Shown: one piece after another, positions 19,848-41,334 of the stretch | How positions within the stretch are numbered: the first letter of the stretch is position 1 | Layout of the letters: each line of letters starts with the position of its first letter | Notes under the pieces: model-generated | Told to the model about the DNA's origin: nothing | The model's database searches: none | What the model saw: the letters and a program-made list of their open reading frames with translations, nothing else | Made by a program: the position numbers and the translations under genes | Assembly (NCBI GenBank): GCA_017514665.1 | Contig: JAFWIX010000001.1 | Location: forward strand, 62,001-126,000 | Length of the DNA: 64,000 bases | DNA from: Candidatus Saccharimonadota bacterium | Lineage (GTDB): Bacteria; Patescibacteriota; Saccharimonadia; Saccharimonadales; Saccharimonadaceae | Direction of reading: 5' to 3'

Positions 19848-22800
19848 GTGAATAATACATTCCGCGAATTGATTACTAGAACTCTATCGCATTTTGGGCA
19901 TAAATATTCTTTATTACCGATAATTGCCTTGTGCGCAATTTTTGGTTCTATTTTGTCAACTACACCTACGCACGCCACGGCTAAGGCCAGCGTAATTTCT
20001 CTCGGAGTCAATGTACATGACTTATCTATAGATTTGATTCCATCGCCCAACGGTTCTTTTGGTAAATCTAATGATGCTACTATCTCTGTCAGCACTGACA
20101 ATTTCACCGGCTACACTCTGACTGTCAGCGCAGCCGACAATTCCGGTTTAATTAACGAAGATGATGATATTATCAACCCCCTAACAACGGCTATCTCTGA
20201 AAACACTTTCATTAACGACATCACTTATAACAACAAATGGGGATATAAGCCCAGTCAATATATATCTTCTGGCAGCGTCATCAGTAATAGTAATTTCTTG
20301 CCTCCTCCTACTACTTCAGGTGATACTATAGACATTACAAATGCCGCTAATTCAACCAGTAATACTTATACAATTGCCTTTGGCACAAAAGTTAATTTTG
20401 AGCAGCCTTCAGGTATTTACGAATATACTTATGTTATCACCGCCGTCGGCAATGATATCACTTACAATATCACTTATAATACCAACACTACTGACACTGT
20501 CACCAATATGCCTTCACCCAACCCTCAAATTGCAGAAATTGCTGGTGGTACTGCCACAGCAGACAGTTACACAACTTTAAGCAGTAACGTTCCAATTAGA
20601 ACTGATCGAGTTTTCGGTGGTTGGTGCGACGAAGCTACCACCACCGACCCGACGACTGGCAATCAAATCTGTTCTGGCACTACTTATAATGCCAGTGATC
20701 AATACGGCATTGATCAAACCGTCGATGGTAGCAACATCCAACTTTATGCAATTTGGCTAGTAGATCCATTTCCTACTGTTTGGAGTCAAATGGGGGCTTG
20801 TGAATTCCACGGCAAAACTGGTGGTAATATCACCGGTACAGAATGTTCCAAATACACGAATAACCAATTCATTGATACTGAAATTCCTTTATACAGTAGC
20901 GCTAATTATCTTAAAGATTTCGAAATTCACTTTACCATTGATTCTTACGATCCAAGCAACCAACAATCCGGTGAAACTCAACAGACTTTTGTTAATGATA
21001 AATTGTCTTCTACCGCTGCCGATGGCAAAGCGCCTGGTTTTGTTTTACGCAGAAACGGTCGTGATATAGAATTCAACTCAAAAATGAATGATACTCAAAT
21101 CAAACCCACTGTTTCAACTTCCGGTCTTACCGACGTCAACCTTTATCGTATCAACAATGTACTTTATTACAGCACCAACAACGGCCCCTTAATTATGCTT
21201 CAAGATATTACCGGATTTTCCCAACAATTTGATCTAAATACTTGGTTTGGTGGTTATCCATCTGACAATTGTACGGGTAGTCCCGATCCCTGTACTAATG
21301 CCAAGAGGTTTATTGAAGCAACCTTTAGCAACATGTATATCAAACTAGGCGACTACCCTGATGAAAGTTTACATCATGTTACTTTCAACGCCAATGGTGG
21401 CACACCAGCCAGCACTAATTACCTAATAGCTGACGGTAATGCTCTAAGTACTCTACCCACCGTCACTTATACCAATCGTCTCTTCGATGGTTGGTTTACA
21501 GCTGCATCTGGTGGTACTCAAATTTCTGCCGCAACCGTACCAAGTGGCAACGATACTTATTACGCTCACTGGACTAAATCAGTAGCTCTAGCTCAACTCG
21601 AAAGTGACAATATCACCGTCGCTCGTAATGATACGGCCACCATCAACGTCACCAATTCCGCTGATCTAGAACCTTACACCTTCAGCTCCAATAACACTTC
21701 CATAGCTACAGTCAACTCATCCACCGGCGTAATCACCGGCGTATCTGCTGGTACCGCCACCATCACTATGACCGGTACTAGATCTCACAGTACTAAAACC
21801 ATCACCGTCAATGTCACCGGCAACACGGTTACTCTTTCGTTCAATGCTCAAGGTGGTGAGTCCGTAGCGGACATACAAGTGGGCCAAGGCGCTTCCCTCC
21901 CCATCAACGACATCCCTTATACGACCAAACAAGGCTACATCCTCGACGGCTGGTATACTGGCGCCAATGGTACTGGCACAAAATTAACTTCTTCCACTGT
22001 CATCAGTAGTACAACTACTTACTTTGCAAACTGGACTCAAGATTCATTCGTTTGTAAAGCCGCTTCTACCCTACATACTGAAACTTGTAGTAGGTCTTCA
22101 CAAGGTTGTCGCGCCGCCGGCTACACCACCAGTGGTGATAGCAGCATTATTACCTATGGCAATTTAATTTCTTCTACTACTATGGCTTATGGCGACGCTT
22201 ATAATTGCGATGTCAACAATGACGGCTCCTACGACGAGACAACCGAAAGATTCTATCTCATCAGTTATAACGATAACACCGCTTCGCTCATCCATTATCG
22301 TAGCACTTCGAACGCCGATTTTCAATACGATCCCGCCATTGCGGAGTTACCCACTACTTCTACCTGGACTAATCCTAACCTCAACATTATCGACGGCACT
22401 AGAGTATCCAGATTCATGACTCGCGCCGAGCTCCAAGAAGTTTGCAATGATAGTAACACCCTACCTAGTGGCTTAGGTGCCGATGGTAAATGTACATTCC
22501 TTATGGAACAATCTAATTTCTCCACCACTGCTAGACGTGATGGTATCTGGCTTGCCATGGAAGGCACCACCAAATACCGTATTCAGACTCAGAGCCGCGC
22601 TGTTACCTCCAACACTACTGCCAACACGCCTCGTGCAGTCATTGAAATATCTCTTCCCTACTTACAAAGAGGTACCGACCCAGTCGCAGATTACATCATT
22701 CATTTTAACCCGCACGGCGGCTCCCAACCTTCAGACATGTCAGTCACCCCAGGCACTCAGCTTGGCTCCCTACCTGCCACCACCTATACCAATCATTTAT

Positions 22801-25283
22801 TCCAGGGTTGGTTCACAGCTGAAACCGGCGGTACTCAAATTTCCACCTCTACTACTCCCGAAGCTAGCACCACTTACCATGCTCAGTGGAAGAAAACCGT
22901 AGCCCTAGCAGAAATTTCTAATAACGACTTTACTCTACCAATCGGCGGTCATCTCGCTATCGGTGTTACCAATGCCACCGAATTAGAGCCTTACACCTTT
23001 AGTTCCGATGATACTAGCATCGCTACAGTCAATTCTAGCACCGGCGAAATCACCGGCGTATCAGAAGGTACTACCGACATCATCATGACTGGCACCACTT
23101 CAGGCGCCACTAAGACGCTCGAGGTAAACGTCACAGCCGATAGTACTTTCACGGTAACTTTCGACACGCAAGGTGGTTCTAGTATTGGTCAAAATCCATG
23201 GGAAGTCACAGCTAACACTGCAATTGGTTCTCTTCCCACCACCACTAAAACCGATTATCGTTTCTTTGGCTGGTATACCGATACTACCTACGAAACCGAG
23301 GTCACTCCCGCTACTATCGTTAGTGATAATACTATCTATTATGCCAGATGGATCGAAGATACCACTAATTTTCCCATTGTCTTTGCTGAAACCAACGCCT
23401 GCACCTTTAACGGCACTAGCGTCATCTCTGGCGACTACTGCGCGGCCGACAAGACCAAGACTTATATTGACACTGCCGTTCAACTTTTTTCTACAACCAA
23501 TTACAACAAAGATTTCGAAATCGGTTTCAATATTGTCAGCTATGATGCCGGCGACAATATCGCTCAAGCTACTCTAGTTAATTCCAAAGAAGAAAATCAG
23601 GCCCAAAATTATCCAGGCTTCGTTATGCGCAAAGTTGATGCCACTTTCGATTTGACTGCAAGGTTTAGTAACGGCACTCCGTCTTCTACGGTTGCTGCTG
23701 CTGGTCTCAAGCAAGTTAGAATCACCAGAAGAAACGGTGTAATGTATTATTCCTGGAATGGTGGTTCCGAAACTCAATACTTTGATACCACTGGCAACTC
23801 TAAACGCTTCAACACTGCAGTCTGGTTTGGTGCTGCACCTCAATCCGACGGTACTACGCCACAAAGGCAACTTAATGGTACTTTGACCGATATGTATATC
23901 AGGCTTGGCGCTAACAATGAATATTCTATTACCTTTGACGCTAATGGTGGTTACGTTGAAGGTACCAATACAATAACTCGTATGATCAATCAAGGCGGTC
24001 CTGTTGGTTCACTACCTACAACCACTCGTGGCGGCAATTGGACTTTTGATGGCTGGTTCACAGACGCATCTGGCGGTACTCAAATTTCTGCTTCTACCAC
24101 ACCTAGTGGTGACACCACTTATTACGCTCATTGGACTCATACTTCTTCCAGTACGCCTGTCTCGTTCAATGTTTCCAATAACGCCACTCGAGGCTACGAA
24201 ACTATTATTGATAGCTGGAGACAAAGTCCGGTCAACATTACTACCTTCAATAAAAACACCACTGATCTCACTCTATCCACTTGGGGTGACACTACTGAAC
24301 TCTCCGAAGCCAGTTTTTGGTCCACTCTCAGAAACAATTTCGAAACTAACACCTGCAAACGACCTAGCTACGGTGATTCCTATTACGATTCCACAGTCAA
24401 TCCAGGACCCTGGACTAGTGGTGCCACCGACTGTTCTCAACCAGACGCTTATGATACCGGCGTTAATGATTTAGTCAACGTTTATCTATATAATACTTCT
24501 ACTTCTACTTTGGGTTCACAAGTTAATTACGCTAAAGCCTCTAGAGGTGTCATTCATAATTTAATTCCAGGTCAAACCTATTATTGGGAAAAGGATGGCG
24601 ACAACACCATTTACGGTTATATCTCAGCCATCGAATCACATGGTATCAGGTGGCTTAACACTGGCCAAGTTCGCAACACTCGCGATCTTGGCGGCCTACC
24701 AGTAGACACTAATAATGACGGCACCAATGACGGCACTCTAGTTTATGGCAGACTCGTTCGCGGCGAACGTATTTGGTCTAACTCTGCCAACGTCACAGAA
24801 CTCACCAATATCGGTCTTAACAAAGAATATGACTTAAGTGAAGGCACTGAGTTAGGTGGTGACGCTCGGCTCAGTCAATACAAGCAAGATACCATAATAC
24901 ACTATAACTTCGATTACGGCTCCGCCAATTATACTGCCGCTTGGAACGCTGTCACCGATATTATGACCGATATAGCCGACAATAATAAAAACATCTACTT
25001 CCATTGTCGCGTTGGCGCCGACCGCACTGGCACTATTGCTTATATTCTAGAAGGTCTACTCGGCGTTCCCGATGAAGAACGTTATCAGGAATACGAACTC
25101 ACCCACCTTTCTGGTTTAACTGACCGTACCCGTTACTACAAGAAAAAGAACACCAACACTACCAAGTTTGTCTTCATGATGGATTACCTCTCCACTAAAC
25201 AAAACGTCTATAATTGGTACATGCAAAATCCTTCAGCCGATGCCACTCTAATCCAGCGTTTCCGCACCGCTATGATTGAATAA
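19848..25283 (+). CDS. Giant secreted InlB-repeat protein with C-terminal tyrosine-phosphatase-like domain
   Basis: 1811 residues from GTG (GGGAG ribosome binding site). Domains in order: signal peptide (about 1-43, ending THA); N-terminal module shared with two other surface proteins here (about 45-200); InlB/Listeria-Bacteroides repeats near 202-304, 509-576, 658-731, 949-1015, 1101-1172 and 1360-1433; two homologous LamG-like domains (about 307-499 and 1173-1355); two Big_2 Ig-like domains (about 578-660 and 1018-1098); a cysteine-containing unknown domain (about 734-942); an Fn3-like linker; and a Y_phosphatase3-like domain (about 1600-1811). This last part has RDLGG at 1612-1616 and the CX5R loop HCRVGADRTG with Cys1720 and Arg1726. 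No LPXTG or C-terminal membrane helix is seen. Likely an exported adhesin carrying a phosphotyrosine or lipid phosphatase. The substrate is unknown. Confidence 0.88.
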   Translation: MNNTFRELITRTLSHFGHKYSLLPIIALCAIFGSILSTTPTHATAKASVISLGVNVHDLSIDLIPSPNGSFGKSNDATISVSTDNFTGYTLTVSAADNSGLINEDDDIINPLTTAISENTFINDITYNNKWGYKPSQYISSGSVISNSNFLPPPTTSGDTIDITNAANSTSNTYTIAFGTKVNFEQPSGIYEYTYVITAVGNDITYNITYNTNTTDTVTNMPSPNPQIAEIAGGTATADSYTTLSSNVPIRTDRVFGGWCDEATTTDPTTGNQICSGTTYNASDQYGIDQTVDGSNIQLYAIWLVDPFPTVWSQMGACEFHGKTGGNITGTECSKYTNNQFIDTEIPLYSSANYLKDFEIHFTIDSYDPSNQQSGETQQTFVNDKLSSTAADGKAPGFVLRRNGRDIEFNSKMNDTQIKPTVSTSGLTDVNLYRINNVLYYSTNNGPLIMLQDITGFSQQFDLNTWFGGYPSDNCTGSPDPCTNAKRFIEATFSNMYIKLGDYPDESLHHVTFNANGGTPASTNYLIADGNALSTLPTVTYTNRLFDGWFTAASGGTQISAATVPSGNDTYYAHWTKSVALAQLESDNITVARNDTATINVTNSADLEPYTFSSNNTSIATVNSSTGVITGVSAGTATITMTGTRSHSTKTITVNVTGNTVTLSFNAQGGESVADIQVGQGASLPINDIPYTTKQGYILDGWYTGANGTGTKLTSSTVISSTTTYFANWTQDSFVCKAASTLHTETCSRSSQGCRAAGYTTSGDSSIITYGNLISSTTMAYGDAYNCDVNNDGSYDETTERFYLISYNDNTASLIHYRSTSNADFQYDPAIAELPTTSTWTNPNLNIIDGTRVSRFMTRAELQEVCNDSNTLPSGLGADGKCTFLMEQSNFSTTARRDGIWLAMEGTTKYRIQTQSRAVTSNTTANTPRAVIEISLPYLQRGTDPVADYIIHFNPHGGSQPSDMSVTPGTQLGSLPATTYTNHLFQGWFTAETGGTQISTSTTPEASTTYHAQWKKTVALAEISNNDFTLPIGGHLAIGVTNATELEPYTFSSDDTSIATVNSSTGEITGVSEGTTDIIMTGTTSGATKTLEVNVTADSTFTVTFDTQGGSSIGQNPWEVTANTAIGSLPTTTKTDYRFFGWYTDTTYETEVTPATIVSDNTIYYARWIEDTTNFPIVFAETNACTFNGTSVISGDYCAADKTKTYIDTAVQLFSTTNYNKDFEIGFNIVSYDAGDNIAQATLVNSKEENQAQNYPGFVMRKVDATFDLTARFSNGTPSSTVAAAGLKQVRITRRNGVMYYSWNGGSETQYFDTTGNSKRFNTAVWFGAAPQSDGTTPQRQLNGTLTDMYIRLGANNEYSITFDANGGYVEGTNTITRMINQGGPVGSLPTTTRGGNWTFDGWFTDASGGTQISASTTPSGDTTYYAHWTHTSSSTPVSFNVSNNATRGYETIIDSWRQSPVNITTFNKNTTDLTLSTWGDTTELSEASFWSTLRNNFETNTCKRPSYGDSYYDSTVNPGPWTSGATDCSQPDAYDTGVNDLVNVYLYNTSTSTLGSQVNYAKASRGVIHNLIPGQTYYWEKDGDNTIYGYISAIESHGIRWLNTGQVRNTRDLGGLPVDTNNDGTNDGTLVYGRLVRGERIWSNSANVTELTNIGLNKEYDLSEGTELGGDARLSQYKQDTIIHYNFDYGSANYTAAWNAVTDIMTDIADNNKNIYFHCRVGADRTGTIAYILEGLLGVPDEERYQEYELTHLSGLTDRTRYYKKKNTNTTKFVFMMDYLSTKQNVYNWYMQNPSADATLIQRFRTAMIE

Positions 25284-25303: not shown

Positions 25304-26170
25304 ATGAGCAATAATAAAGTTGAAATCAAAGGCGTCAAAAATACCAAAACCGAAGATAATTCGATAAGTGTTCGTAAGCGCATTTTTACTATTATTGAAC
25401 CTCACAAAGGCTCCGATCATGCCAGCCGTTTTTATGACTATGCTATGGTTATAGTTATCGTCTGTAGCCTCGTGCCGCTACTTTTTAAAGATGAATCTGG
25501 TTTTCTTTTTGCTATCGATAAAATTTGCGTTTCTATTTTCATTATGGATTACATCCTTCGCTGGATTACCGCCGATTATCGTTTTAAGGATCATAGTCGT
25601 CGCGCCTTCCTTCATTACCCTTTCTCCGTTATGGCCATTATCGATCTCATCTCTATCCTACCTTCTCTCACCATCATTAATAATAGTTTCAAACTTTTCC
25701 GTCTCATCCGTCTTGCCAAACTCGTTCGCCTTGCCAAGTTTATACGTTATTCCAGAAATTTCAAAATCATCATCGGTATTCTCAAAAAGACTTATCATTC
25801 TCTCGTTGCCGTCGGCATTGCTGGTGCTGCCTATGTCGTTATCGCCGGCCTTATTGCCTTCAACGCAGAACCCGAAAATTTCGACTCTATTTTCGACGCT
25901 ATGTACTGGGCAGTTATCGTCTGGAACATCGATCCCACTTCTGTTAGCGGCCACATCGTCGCCGTCTGTTCGGTAATTTTTGGTCTTGCTATTGTTGCTC
26001 TACCTACCAGTATCATCACCGCCGAATACATCAACAAGCTCAATCGCGCTGAGCACTCTGATGATTTTAAGAAAGAAATTCAAGAAATCAATCGCGAAAT
26101 CGAAGAAGATATCGAAAAAGATATCAAAAAAGATCTTAAAAAAGACCTCGAAAAAGATCTCAAGAAGTAA
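25304..26170 (+). CDS. Voltage-gated-type ion channel protein with atypical pore
   Basis: 288 residues, Ion_trans-like. Four helices (about 45-170) include an S4-like helix with regularly spaced arginines and lysines (FRLIRLAKLVRLAKFIRY, about 127-144). S5 and S6 flank a pore loop YWAVIVWNIDPTS (about 203-215). The K+ signature TVGYGD is missing, although S6 and the WAV lead-in look like Kv channels. The cytoplasmic tail is a charged repeat (EKDIKKDLKKDLEKDLKK). It starts 20 bases after the giant surface-protein gene with no promoter I can see, so probably co-transcribed. Ion selectivity cannot be assigned. Confidence 0.8.
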   Translation: MSNNKVEIKGVKNTKTEDNSISVRKRIFTIIEPHKGSDHASRFYDYAMVIVIVCSLVPLLFKDESGFLFAIDKICVSIFIMDYILRWITADYRFKDHSRRAFLHYPFSVMAIIDLISILPSLTIINNSFKLFRLIRLAKLVRLAKFIRYSRNFKIIIGILKKTYHSLVAVGIAGAAYVVIAGLIAFNAEPENFDSIFDAMYWAVIVWNIDPTSVSGHIVAVCSVIFGLAIVALPTSIITAEYINKLNRAEHSDDFKKEIQEINREIEEDIEKDIKKDLKKDLEKDLKK

Positions 26171-35033: not shown

Positions 35034-37907
35034 TCATTTTACAATACAGCGTACCGCAAAGGCATCCCACTTATTCCAGGAGCCAGTAGGTGTAGCTCCA
35101 CTAGCGGTAACCCCAAGGCGATAAGCATTATTTGCCCCATTAGGTGTTGCACTCCAATAACGACCATATGAATGTCGACCATTAGGAGTATTATAATTAT
35201 AATCACCGGCATAAATAAAATTGTCAGGGAATTTAACAAGGCCAGTGTCAACTTTAGTAGAAGCATTATTAGCTAAATTATTCAATGTTACATATTCACC
35301 TGAAGTTCCACCAGTTGGTAAACGCCAACCAGTTGGACAAATATCGCCAGCCACATTACCACTAGTCATCGAGAAAGTACCATTTCCAGCCGAAGCGGTA
35401 TACCAATTATACATTACACCATAACCATACCATGAACTATTGACACTATTGTTATTGTGCGAAGCGGGCAAATTACGATTAATGGTGTTGGTATTATACT
35501 TAACCGTATCAATACAATCGCTAGTATTAGTTTTACACAATACATTACTAGTTGAGGAACTAGCCGCCATAGTCACAAAATTAGAAGTAGGCAAATTAGT
35601 GTTGTTGCTATCAAACGTAATCGCAGCTGGATTTAGACGCAAATTTTCGGTCATCCAGCAATTGCCATCCTCTAATTTAGCAACCGAATATGTATTATTA
35701 TCGCGCGTATCTCTCAATGCAATCATGCCACCACTGTTTATAGCATTACATGCGGCACTATTAAACGATTGCATAGTATAGGTAGTGTCTTCTGGTAGCC
35801 AAACGGCATATAAGTCAATATGGTTATTCGCGTCAGCGTGAGCAAGAAAGGCGTTATCTACGTTGATTGTTTCATTAGGACCATAGATTGTTACCGAATT
35901 GCCATTTATAAATTTCGTACCAGCATTAGCGTCTAAACTCCAACCAATAAAACCATAGCCATTACGTGAAAAATTAGAAGCTACAAGCGGAAGCTTGCCT
36001 ATGCTTAATGACTCAACATCTGCACTGCTCATAGAACCAGCAGTAGCACCATTGCCGTCATAAGACAAATTATATTCTGAGCGCCAAATAGCATAAAGTG
36101 TCAATGTATCACCATCGCCAAGACCCATATATTCAGCCGCCTCAGACACCATACCGCCCTCAGTCACTACTATTCCAGAACCATCTGACGCAGTATTCCA
36201 ATTAAGAAAAGTCGCATGTTGTTTTGTAAATTCATTATTCGCCGCTAATGCGACACCAAAATCTACATCCACTTCGTCTGCCATTGTACCGGCACCACCA
36301 TTAGCATTATAATGAATGTTGCCGTTAGCATGGTATTCCTCACTAAAAACGCAGCGAACAGTTTGGCCACGTACTTTTAAAGTGTTGTTGGAATTCATAT
36401 ATATGCTATCAGCTTTTATCCAAAGGTTTGAAGAGCGCTCTGCACTATACGTGTTTGCAGTGTTGTAATTGCTGGAAATCGCTCGATTGCCAGCTGTTTC
36501 ACCTCTTTGCTCACCGCTATACACAAAGTTCAAAGGGTACGTTCGCCAACGTATCGAACCCGCAAGCGCACCCGCAGATCCAGGAGCTTTGTTTTTGCCA
36601 TTGCCACCTAAAAGAACATCTAACCTCGACAGTTCTCCATTGTCACTATAGCCAGACGGAATTCGCCAATTAGCTGGACAGATATCACCACTTACGGCCG
36701 CCCCAGTAACAGAAAAATCATAAGTACCATTACCGGCAGTAGCGGTATACCAGTTATAATAATTACCATAAGAATACCAAGAACTACTAGTGTTGTTTGC
36801 GTCATAAGAAGCCGTTAAATCACGGTTAGTATTATTGGTATTATGCAAAACTCTATTTATACAATTTGCGTTATTATTAACGCAAAAATCATTAGTCGAC
36901 GCAGGATGCCCATTATTGATAGCACTAATAAACGAATCTGTTGGTTGATTAGTGTTTAAATTACTAATTTCAAGATTCGGATTGGAAAGATCAAGACGAA
37001 GATTTTCCATCATCCAACACTGGCCGTCTACATATTTAGCCACAGCATAAGTTTCACCATCACGCACATCAGTCAGCGCAGTAACGTCTCCTATATTTAG
37101 GTTTTTACAGCCCGCCCAATCCTGAAGATTACCAGCAGAAGGAGCCCATTTGGCATAAAGTTGTAGACCTTCGGCAGTCAAATCACCGGTTGTAATGGTA
37201 GCATTTGGTCCATAATTAGTACCACTACCGTCAATTTCGGTATTCCAGCCAACAAAACCATAACCAGGACGCGAAAAATTAGACGGAATCAAGGTGATAT
37301 CAGTACTAGAGCTAGCCAGTTGGTTCTCCATAGTACCAGTACCGTCATCATCATTGCCGTAATAACAAATATTATTCTCGGGGCACGGAGCCAAATTAAC
37401 TACTGCTTGAATAATCAAAGTATTACTATATGTTCCGCTAGGTTGCTCTGGTGACACCAAAGTACCATAAGTTAAATTATGTTCGTTTTCGCCAGCACTA
37501 CTAGTTTCAAAAATCTTCTGGCTAAAACCCGGTTCTGGAATCGAAAAATAATTAGCTCCACCATCTACACTAAACCCATAGCCATAGCCAGTACTTCCAG
37601 CTGGTATACTAGTGGCACCCGTAGGAAGCGTAAAAGTAGGGATACTGAGATTAGGGTTTAACTGATGAATTAAAGCATTGCTAGAACCAGTAGCAGCTAT
37701 ACTAACAGTGTAACCAGCAAGATTAGTAGTTGAAACCGTCAAGGTTTGTGATGTAGTAGCAAAAACGTCCGCAGTTGCTTCCATACTAGCAGCACTAGGT
37801 GAAATAGCAATCGATAAGCTATCTTCAGCAAAAACCGCCTGGTTAGCAAAAACCAAGTTAAACAACGAGAAAATGCTAATACAAAGTATTTTTATTGTTT
37901 TTTTCAT
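35034..37907 (-). CDS. Secreted FISUMP/InlB-repeat surface protein
   Basis: 957 residues. Signal peptide about 1-27 (FANQAVFA). The N-terminal module shared with two other proteins here (about 45-170) has STTNLAGYTVSIAAT and EQPSGTYSNTLIIQAVVN. InlB-like repeats lie at about 181-257, 535-607 and 610-700. Two FISUMP domains (Fibrobacter succinogenes major paralogous type; about 262-520 and 712-957) both carry a VAKxxDGxCWMxENLRL motif, GDICPxxWRxP and a terminal RCxxx. Probably cell-surface exposed. The ligand is unknown. No sorting signal. Confidence 0.85.
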   Translation of the reverse strand: MKKTIKILCISIFSLFNLVFANQAVFAEDSLSIAISPSAASMEATADVFATTSQTLTVSTTNLAGYTVSIAATGSSNALIHQLNPNLSIPTFTLPTGATSIPAGSTGYGYGFSVDGGANYFSIPEPGFSQKIFETSSAGENEHNLTYGTLVSPEQPSGTYSNTLIIQAVVNLAPCPENNICYYGNDDDGTGTMENQLASSSTDITLIPSNFSRPGYGFVGWNTEIDGSGTNYGPNATITTGDLTAEGLQLYAKWAPSAGNLQDWAGCKNLNIGDVTALTDVRDGETYAVAKYVDGQCWMMENLRLDLSNPNLEISNLNTNQPTDSFISAINNGHPASTNDFCVNNNANCINRVLHNTNNTNRDLTASYDANNTSSSWYSYGNYYNWYTATAGNGTYDFSVTGAAVSGDICPANWRIPSGYSDNGELSRLDVLLGGNGKNKAPGSAGALAGSIRWRTYPLNFVYSGEQRGETAGNRAISSNYNTANTYSAERSSNLWIKADSIYMNSNNTLKVRGQTVRCVFSEEYHANGNIHYNANGGAGTMADEVDVDFGVALAANNEFTKQHATFLNWNTASDGSGIVVTEGGMVSEAAEYMGLGDGDTLTLYAIWRSEYNLSYDGNGATAGSMSSADVESLSIGKLPLVASNFSRNGYGFIGWSLDANAGTKFINGNSVTIYGPNETINVDNAFLAHADANNHIDLYAVWLPEDTTYTMQSFNSAACNAINSGGMIALRDTRDNNTYSVAKLEDGNCWMTENLRLNPAAITFDSNNTNLPTSNFVTMAASSSTSNVLCKTNTSDCIDTVKYNTNTINRNLPASHNNNSVNSSWYGYGVMYNWYTASAGNGTFSMTSGNVAGDICPTGWRLPTGGTSGEYVTLNNLANNASTKVDTGLVKFPDNFIYAGDYNYNTPNGRHSYGRYWSATPNGANNAYRLGVTASGATPTGSWNKWDAFAVRCIVK

Positions 37908-39867: not shown

Positions 39868-41334
39868 ATGAACAAGTTCAAAGTTACATGTTCTGTTCTG
39901 ATACTTACCTTTTTGGTGAGTATTTTTTCTGGTGCTGTTTATGCCACTCAGGCTAGTACTGATACAGAAGTAGAGTTAAATGTCTCTACCGTTATTAACA
40001 TTTCTACACCAGACACTACTACCATTAACTGTGCTAGTCTTAATACTCTATGTACTGCTAATACTACTATTACTGTAGGTACTAATAACATTACTGGCTA
40101 TACTTTACAGTTAAATGCTACTTCTGGTTATTCTAATAGTCTTACTAATTCTGCTACTAATGAAACTATTCCTACCTTATCTCAATCTTATGCTTCAGGT
40201 TCCTTTCCCACTAACTATTGGGGCTACACTGGTGGTCTAGATAAATCAGGAGAAACAGGAGGCTTAGACTGTTTTGCTAACTATTGTCCTATCCTTGCTT
40301 ATCAATCTACTGAATCTAATTACACACCAAACCACGCTATTAAAGTTACTGATGCTCCAGCTACTGCTTCTAATACTACTATTACTTTTGGTGCTAAAGC
40401 TGATATTACTAAATCTGCTGGTACTTATTCTACTTCTGTTACCTTTACGGCAGTTACTAACTATGTACCTCATCCTATTACTAATGGTATGAGTATGACG
40501 GATATAGACGCTAATACTTGTTCAGATACCCCACTTGAAACTACTTATACTGTAGTAGATCCAAGAGACAATAAATCATATGCTGTAGCTAAGCTAAAAG
40601 ATGGTAACTGCTGGATGCAAGATAACCTTGCTTTAGATATAGTTGCTTCCAAAAACAACATCACTTCATCAAATACTAATGCCTCAGATACTTATCTAAA
40701 CTATCTTAAAGGTATAAGCACTGGCACTACTTCAGACCAATATCCTACTGCTGGAGTAGCCTATTGGACTAGTAGCTATAGCTACTCCGATCCTCTCATT
40801 GCCGTTAGTGGTAATTGTTCTGACACAAACTGCGTTAATGACCCATCTTCTGGTGAGTGGCGTAGTGACGCTGTAGCTCCCGTTACTTATGGTAATGGTA
40901 GCGGTAAAATTGGTGTCTACTATAACTTCTGTGCCGCCTCTGCTGGTTCATATTGTTGGGGTAATGGTACAAGTGGCACTGGTTCTCCCTCTTCAGACCC
41001 TAAGTCTGGTACCTCTTATGACATAGACGCTGATATCTGTCCGGCTGGCTGGCATATGCCTACTACAAACGGTGGTGAATATTCCGCCCTCACCAAGTAT
41101 TATACTATCTACTCCTCTAACGACTACAGAAACGCCCTCTCTACGCCTCTCTCTGGCTTCTTCTACAATGGCTCGGCGTACAGTCAGGGGCTGTGGGGTC
41201 TCTTCTGGTCTTCTACCTGGAGAACTGCGAATGCCATGAAAGACCTCCACTTAAATGCCAGTATTGTAGAACCATACGAGGGTAATTATCGCACCGAGGG
41301 CCAGTCGTTGAGGTGTGTAATAAACGGATTGTAG
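39868..41334 (+). CDS. Secreted FISUMP-domain surface protein
   Basis: 488 residues. Signal peptide about 1-27 (SGAVYATQA), then the shared N-terminal module (about 50-200: GTNNITGYTLQLNATSG ... FGAKADITKSAGTYSTSVTFTAVTN), then one FISUMP domain (about 215-488: VVDPRDNKSYAVAKLKDGNCWMQDNLALD, DICPAGWHMPT, FWSSTWR, LRCVI). Rich in T, S and N, with A/T-rich codons in the first half. No anchor seen. TATAAT-N6-ATG promoter. Confidence 0.85.
   Translation: MNKFKVTCSVLILTFLVSIFSGAVYATQASTDTEVELNVSTVINISTPDTTTINCASLNTLCTANTTITVGTNNITGYTLQLNATSGYSNSLTNSATNETIPTLSQSYASGSFPTNYWGYTGGLDKSGETGGLDCFANYCPILAYQSTESNYTPNHAIKVTDAPATASNTTITFGAKADITKSAGTYSTSVTFTAVTNYVPHPITNGMSMTDIDANTCSDTPLETTYTVVDPRDNKSYAVAKLKDGNCWMQDNLALDIVASKNNITSSNTNASDTYLNYLKGISTGTTSDQYPTAGVAYWTSSYSYSDPLIAVSGNCSDTNCVNDPSSGEWRSDAVAPVTYGNGSGKIGVYYNFCAASAGSYCWGNGTSGTGSPSSDPKSGTSYDIDADICPAGWHMPTTNGGEYSALTKYYTIYSSNDYRNALSTPLSGFFYNGSAYSQGLWGLFWSSTWRTANAMKDLHLNASIVEPYEGNYRTEGQSLRCVINGL

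Follow-up and report, generated by a model that had tools for sequence, protein, structure and literature searches.

The open reading frame at positions 19848-25283 of the window (the whole stretch of 64,000 nucleotides that was analysed) encodes an 1811-residue protein, which is read here as an exported enzyme-adhesin that removes phosphate monoesters at the surface of a bacterial cell to which it is bound; we give this reading roughly even odds (about 0.5). The catalytic competence of its phosphatase domain is well supported by sequence comparison, whereas the substrate is one that we infer.

The gene lies on the plus strand, starts with GTG and contains no internal stops. The genome from which the window derives comprises 670,673 bases in 10 contigs, its relatives are Candidatus Saccharibacteria, and its only PF13350 match is the 1811-residue protein. 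The features are listed below, with the basis for each in brackets.

19848..25283, plus strand: whole gene for the 1811-residue exported phosphatase-adhesin (open frame; same layout in relatives of 1617-2355 residues)
19848..19976, plus strand: predicted signal peptide, residues 1-43, with the predicted cut at THATA|KA (hydrophobic stretch and Ala-x-Ala site; like site in 16 relatives)
19974..20465, plus strand: N-terminal module, residues 43-206, common to other exported proteins of the genome (profile match to 35034-37907 and 39868-41334)
20754..21377, plus strand: LamG-like domain 1, residues 303-510 (AlphaFold2 pLDDT 89.6; Foldseek LG/LNS domains)
21375..21572, plus strand: List_Bact repeat, residues 510-575 (PF09479 and own profile)
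21579..21821, plus strand: Big_2 domain 1, residues 578-658 (PF02368 and own profile)
21831..22034, plus strand: List_Bact repeat, residues 662-729 (PF09479 and own profile)
22032..22667, plus strand: conserved domain of unknown fold, residues 729-940 (alignment; only in the phosphatase-adhesin across four genomes)
22695..22889, plus strand: List_Bact repeat, residues 950-1014 (PF09479 and own profile)
22896..23138, plus strand: Big_2 domain 2, residues 1017-1097 (PF02368 and own profile)
23151..23351, plus strand: List_Bact repeat, residues 1102-1168 (PF09479 and own profile)
23349..23927, plus strand: LamG-like domain 2, residues 1168-1360 (35% identity to domain 1; only here in four genomes)
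23925..24134, plus strand: List_Bact repeat, residues 1360-1429 (PF09479 and own profile)
24150..24665, plus strand: Fn-like beta domain, residues 1435-1606, with two conserved Cys, a probable disulphide (AlphaFold2 secondary structure; Cys in 29 of 29 rows)
24666..25208, plus strand: Y_phosphatase3 catalytic domain, residues 1607-1787 (PF13350; Foldseek 8dhi and 2oz5; conserved in all relatives)

Regarding the phosphatase domain, the PF13350 match over residues 1607-1787 has an E-value of 4.5e-16 (60 bits against a gathering cut-off of 22.2), and the same family is above cut-off in 20 of 20 aligned relatives. The intact RDLGG and HCX5R(T) motifs reported in the initial annotation were found as RNTRDLGG (residues 1609-1616) and as the P-loop HCRVGADRTG (residues 1719-1728), with the catalytic Cys at residue 1720, as it had given. 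An AlphaFold2 model of residues 1435-1811, computed with 19 relatives, has moderate confidence (pLDDT 72.9, pTM 0.79); Foldseek matched it to the Clostridioides difficile PTP (8dhi, E 1.1e-7) and to Mycobacterium tuberculosis PtpB (2oz5, E 2.5e-5), both with a probability of 1.00 but with TM-scores of only about 0.5, and a profile search of the PDB agreed with the fold (8dhi, E 4.3e-6). The model thus points to a PtpB-type PTP fold with a CX5R loop (HCRVGADR), the structure that the initial annotation had expected of this region. Every one of the 30 relatives keeps the catalytic Cys, Asp and Arg, and the NxRD[LI]GG motif (NxREIGG in two) is present in 29 of the 30 copies. The dN/dS of the catalytic part ranges from 0.03 to 0.12 over six pairs and is usually below that of the stalk modules. 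Because the fold match, the conserved motifs and the strong purifying selection agree, the domain is very probably active, and the competent Cys-phosphatase first proposed is borne out as a prediction. Conceivably, the domain could have lost catalysis and serve adhesion as a phosphate-binding fold, as other lectin-like binding parts surround it, but complete retention of the Cys, Asp and Arg under such selection makes this very unlikely. Directly before the phosphatase lies the Fn-like beta domain, which was absent from the domain list of the initial annotation and whose conserved Cys pair fits a disulphide outside the cell.

The P-loop also bears on the substrate class. In the group of MptpB and LipA, the P-loop signature is HCXXGKDR[TA]G, in which Asp serves as the catalytic acid and Lys is required for phosphoinositide binding (PMC3091653). 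The loop of the present family reads HCxxG[AS]DR in 30 of 30 copies, with Ala or Ser where the atypical lipid phosphatases (ALPs) have Lys, and none of these copies carries the full signature. The Asp is kept in all 30, and a role as general acid is assigned to it by analogy. Since the Asp is kept but the Lys is missing, the family is, on its sequence, a member of Y_phosphatase3 that falls outside the lipid-phosphatase signature, and a LipA/PtpB-type substrate, to which the earlier comparison with these enzymes had pointed, is not upheld. Nor can the substrate be read from the family name, because Pho16B, a secreted GKDR-type Y_phosphatase3 enzyme from soil, is promiscuous and on phytate, which it also cuts, reaches about 30% of its best rate (PMC6409689).

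Action on animal or protozoan phospho-proteins or phosphoinositides, in the manner of LipA and PtpB, would be in keeping with the shared Pfam family and fold of PtpB and with the gut habitat. A further point in its favour is that 21 of 30 copies carry Arg at position 2 of the P-loop, since a basic residue at this position raised the poly-phosphoinositide activity of MptpB (PMC3091653). However, the phosphoinositide-binding Lys is replaced in every copy, there is no visible route by which the enzyme would be delivered into eukaryotic cells, and the closest kin found outside Saccharibacteria are proteins of phage tail modules. Set beside a bacterial surface and phosphate scavenging, an animal target is the least supported of the three and is considered unlikely; the suggestion that the enzyme acts on host phospho-proteins or phospholipids, if an animal host was meant, thus gained no specific support.

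The phosphatase is carried at the end of a long repeat stalk. Five stretches of List_Bact repeats pass in Pfam (PF09479, E 5.8e-52), TIGR02543 also matches (E 3.4e-10), and a degenerate first repeat was recognised by eye at about residues 206-306, so that six repeats are counted, in agreement with the six InlB-type repeats initially annotated. PF02368 matches twice (E 4.6e-11), which accounts for both Big_2 domains described before. No Pfam family is above cut-off for the LamG-like units of the window copy, and Laminin_G_2 is matched by only one of 31 LamG-like members (E 0.0019). The model of LamG-like domain 1 is nevertheless of LG type (pLDDT 89.6, pTM 0.88 in AlphaFold2), its best PDB fold matches being the LG/LNS domains of agrin, neurexin and laminin (Foldseek E about 1e-5, probability 1.00), and the two units share 35% identity; the naming of two LamG-like domains was therefore right on the fold, although Pfam misses both. 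Residues 729-940 form a conserved Cys-containing domain of about 210 residues, which the initial annotation did not list and for which no sequence match was found in Pfam or the PDB. In the four genomes tested, the LamG-like and 729-940 domains are confined to the phosphatase-adhesin, suggesting that they are dedicated to the phosphatase, whereas the N-terminal module is common to other exported proteins. The domain layout is constant across copies of the phosphatase-adhesin, and the adhesin-like architecture, a repeat stalk with LG-fold domains, was recovered as first described.

Export is well supported as a prediction from sequence pattern. An Ala-x-Ala cut site resembling THATA|KA is present in 16 relatives, and all readable N-termini in the family hold a signal peptide or a transmembrane helix, in line with an exported rather than a cytoplasmic protein; some relatives have N-terminal transmembrane helices. 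The N-terminal module matches two other proteins of the window by profile, 35034-37907 (E 1.7e-9) and 39868-41334 (E 9.9e-10); the former looks exported and contains FISUMP domains and List_Bact repeats.

Anchoring differs among the copies. After the phosphatase, 16 of 30 copies continue into a tail comprising a Ser/Thr/Asn-rich linker, a PLGV motif (with the variants PLNA, PQGV and PLGA), a hydrophobic helix and a charged end. Gain or loss of this tail amounts to six changes on the family tree, at least five of which are forced by well-supported branches. The window copy stops at ...FRTAMIE right after the phosphatase, with no vestigial tail in three frames of the next 400 bases and no C-terminal sorting signal of the sortase-anchored wall proteins, as expected from the statement that no wall anchor is visible. 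The proposal that attachment relies on the shared N-terminal module may hold for the window copy, but about half of the family has an anchor-like C-terminal tail instead. In many relatives, the linker-PLGV-transmembrane tail or the N-terminal transmembrane helices would fix the enzyme to the epibiont, and in the tailed relatives it would be kept near the epibiont's own wall. The window copy, with neither tail nor N-terminal transmembrane helices, is probably shed or held through its binding domains.

The P[LQ]GV tail, with its short linker, hydrophobic helix and charged end, is also found at the end of other giant exported proteins and of a 437-residue protein from the window's own genome; examples include the C-terminal ends of L009, L016, L023 and others, G000:C10:38643-38801 (L073), L077 and L080. 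NCBIfam did not recognise the PLGV-type tail of the relatives. From its pattern, the tail looks like a sorting or anchoring signal of Saccharibacteria. Two sortase-family genes are present in the window's genome (G000:C5:73019-73426 and G000:C10:19689-19961); on contig 10, one of them is separated from the PQGV-tailed protein by about 19 kb.

The loci of the phosphatase gene in relatives have differing neighbourhoods. The window neighbours, aspS and an ion channel, do not recur within 10 kb of the other loci. The Ion_trans channel gene (25304-26170) is on the same strand, 20 bp downstream of the phosphatase gene, and may be co-transcribed with it; it was not found beside other copies. An exception to this variation is L022, in which an orthologue of the FISUMP protein 35034-37907 (55% over 961 residues) adjoins the phosphatase gene. 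These observations also bear on a polymorphic-toxin-style role, in which the C-terminal domain would be a tip injected into the bound bacterium. A giant exported protein with a C-terminal enzyme would suit such a role, and there are weak, below-cut-off matches to PF22785, the DSP-PTPase domain of polymorphic toxin systems. Polymorphic toxins are defined by a variable tip with an immunity gene, but here the phosphatase is the most conserved part and the downstream channel is not conserved elsewhere; in many copies the enzyme is followed by a linker and a membrane tail, and phosphatases outside the cell are not self-toxic. A toxin tip is accordingly very improbable.

A scan of 84,980 species genomes, made with a three-sequence alignment, returned 19 loci, every one in Saccharibacteria. 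The scan was keyed on one peptide pattern from the Fn-like part and a second from close to the C-terminal end of the phosphatase region, and would therefore miss more distant enzymes. The carriers with a stated source are from ruminant guts (water buffalo, sheep, goat, yak and roe deer), which is in line with a distribution across host-associated Saccharibacteria, and the other titles give read-archive numbers only. In whole genomes sampled from the class, the module is present in 22 of 295 genomes and 2 of 129 genera, both genera belonging to one Saccharibacteria family, and most genomes of the same genera are without the phosphatase-adhesin. The gene is kept only patchily, and its binding parts are dedicated to it. 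Two sister genomes encode separate proteins of about 410 residues (L051:5758-6993 and L052:3920-5146), in which a GKDR-type Y_phosphatase3 domain is combined with a transmembrane stretch at the N-terminus; these proteins lie far from the exported family in the tree.

Searches for relatives outside Saccharibacteria led to gut phages. The window's own phosphatase domain had no match in phage or plasmid records, and a first viral scan likewise found nothing; an origin from a mobile element was rejected on these results, the phage kin having emerged only through a P-loop pattern. This pattern (HCxxGADRTG-T) was found on 20 viral contigs; in profile comparison, 18 of them encode proteins clearly homologous to the Saccharibacteria module (E 3e-22 to 3e-40). 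The best phage match covers profile positions 71-380 and so takes in the Fn-like part and the phosphatase as well as the final helix; the phage module shares 30% identity with the window protein over 263 residues in pairwise alignment. The complete phage proteins are mostly about 600-615 residues long; examples of about 610 residues, with the gene in a tail module, come from L125, L126, L130, L134 and L137. In L125, L126, L130 and L137 (IMG/VR contigs), the gene is in the tail module and adjoins genes for a tail protein, a collagen-like fibre, a minor tail protein or Dit; in L126 it is immediately 5' of the holin and endolysin genes. One of four phage copies checked by neighbours, L131, adjoins a head gene, not a tail gene. 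PHROGs has no family for the phage protein, and when named phages were searched with the module of the phage contigs, no annotated match of use was obtained. A viral search with the GKDR pattern returned mostly short phosphatases of dual-specificity-like type that are unrelated and have no RDxGG motif.

In a tree of the phage proteins, the Saccharibacteria proteins and nine sampled GKDR enzymes, from which cellular Clostridia and Bacteroidota were left out, the phage and Saccharibacteria proteins stand apart from the GKDR enzymes (support 98/91), and the Saccharibacteria proteins form one group (support 100/99). The shared GADR motif partly reflects selection of the sample, because the phage contigs were picked by a pattern containing it. 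Secreted GADR-loop phosphatases also exist in cellular Clostridia and Bacteroidota, which is a lead rather than a test.

From these features, a course of action can be proposed. The signal peptide would export the protein, and the stalk of List_Bact and Big_2 domains would carry the two LamG-like lectin-fold domains and the 729-940 domain, which may hold the protein to a glycan-bearing surface, the fold being modelled for the LamG-like unit. Cys1720 would act as the nucleophile, Arg1726 would bind the phosphate and Asp1725 of the P-loop would serve as the general acid, by analogy with MptpB, so that phosphate monoesters near the bound surface might be stripped. The likeliest target would be phosphorylated surface material of the bacterium that carries the epibiont or is being approached by it. 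A bacterial surface is favoured because the nearest outside kin found are in gut phage tail modules; as a best guess for the target, it has about one chance in three. Tentatively, and with less than even probability, gut phages and epibiotic Saccharibacteria may use one GADR-type module on phosphorylated bacterial exteriors during attachment.

The main rival is phosphate scavenging, in which the enzyme would free phosphate, inositol or nucleosides from soluble organophosphates in digesta (phytate, nucleotides and sugar phosphates) and the LamG domains would merely keep it near plant or mucin glycans. Phytate is common in the ruminant gut, from which the source-named carriers come, and other PTP-like phytases are known; the phytate activity of Pho16B mentioned above points the same way. 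However, the P-loop is without the extra Lys of Pho16B, scavenging has no need of a giant dedicated binding stalk in so patchy a family, and the phage tail-module kin would gain nothing from free phosphate. Scavenging is thus regarded as possible but doubtful.

The catalytic family, the repeats, the LG fold and secreted members of Y_phosphatase3 are already known. Literature searches, which left many subscription journals outside, found no description of such a Saccharibacteria protein or of a tyrosine-phosphatase domain in phage tails. They likewise turned up no account of three features predicted here from sequence: the combination of these parts in one giant adhesin, a GADR loop typical of a whole family of such proteins, and the occurrence of this module in clusters of phage tail genes. 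Host recognition and action by Saccharibacteria are largely unknown beyond type IV pili (PMC12206443). A conserved, dedicated exported phosphatase with its own binding domains would be a purifiable enzyme, the substrate of which could be found in the laboratory. That gut phage tail genes share the module may point to a phosphorylated structure on the bacterial surface with which both parasites have to cope, and the phage copies mark a type of protein outside the PHROGs descriptions. If the shared use of the module is true, it would add a kind of host-surface enzyme beyond the known depolymerases and wall hydrolases, and would provide a molecular step in the contact between episymbiont and host.

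Among known systems, MptpB/PtpB of M. tuberculosis, LipA (Lmo1800) of Listeria and Pho16B share with the window protein the PF13350 family, the fold, the CX5R nucleophile, export, the P-loop Asp as the likely general acid and the NxRDLGG motif, and they differ in the P-loop Lys (HCXXGKDR), which is Ala or Ser in the Saccharibacteria family. The known ALPs consist of the phosphatase domain only (PMC3091653), whereas here this domain ends an adhesin stalk of 1400 residues. The C. difficile PTP (8dhi and 8dhj) is the best PDB match by both fold and profile, but shares only about 17% identity over the fold, has the P-loop HCTAGKDRTG and is a single-domain protein of about 250 residues. Rumen bacteria have PTP-like phytases, which are likewise exported Cys-phosphatases of the anaerobic gut but belong to a different Pfam family, PF14566; this family was absent among the Pfam hits of all aligned relatives. 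Adhesins with List_Bact/InlB-type repeats, Big_2 and LamG-like domains likewise have a signal peptide, a repeat stalk and lectin-fold domains, whereas the window protein ends in an enzyme and has LamG-like and 729-940 domains restricted to it within the four genomes tested. The gut phage proteins share the whole module of Fn-like domain, phosphatase and C-terminal helix together with the GADR P-loop, and differ in their length of about 610 residues, the lack of a signal peptide, their other N- and C-terminal modules and their virion gene context.
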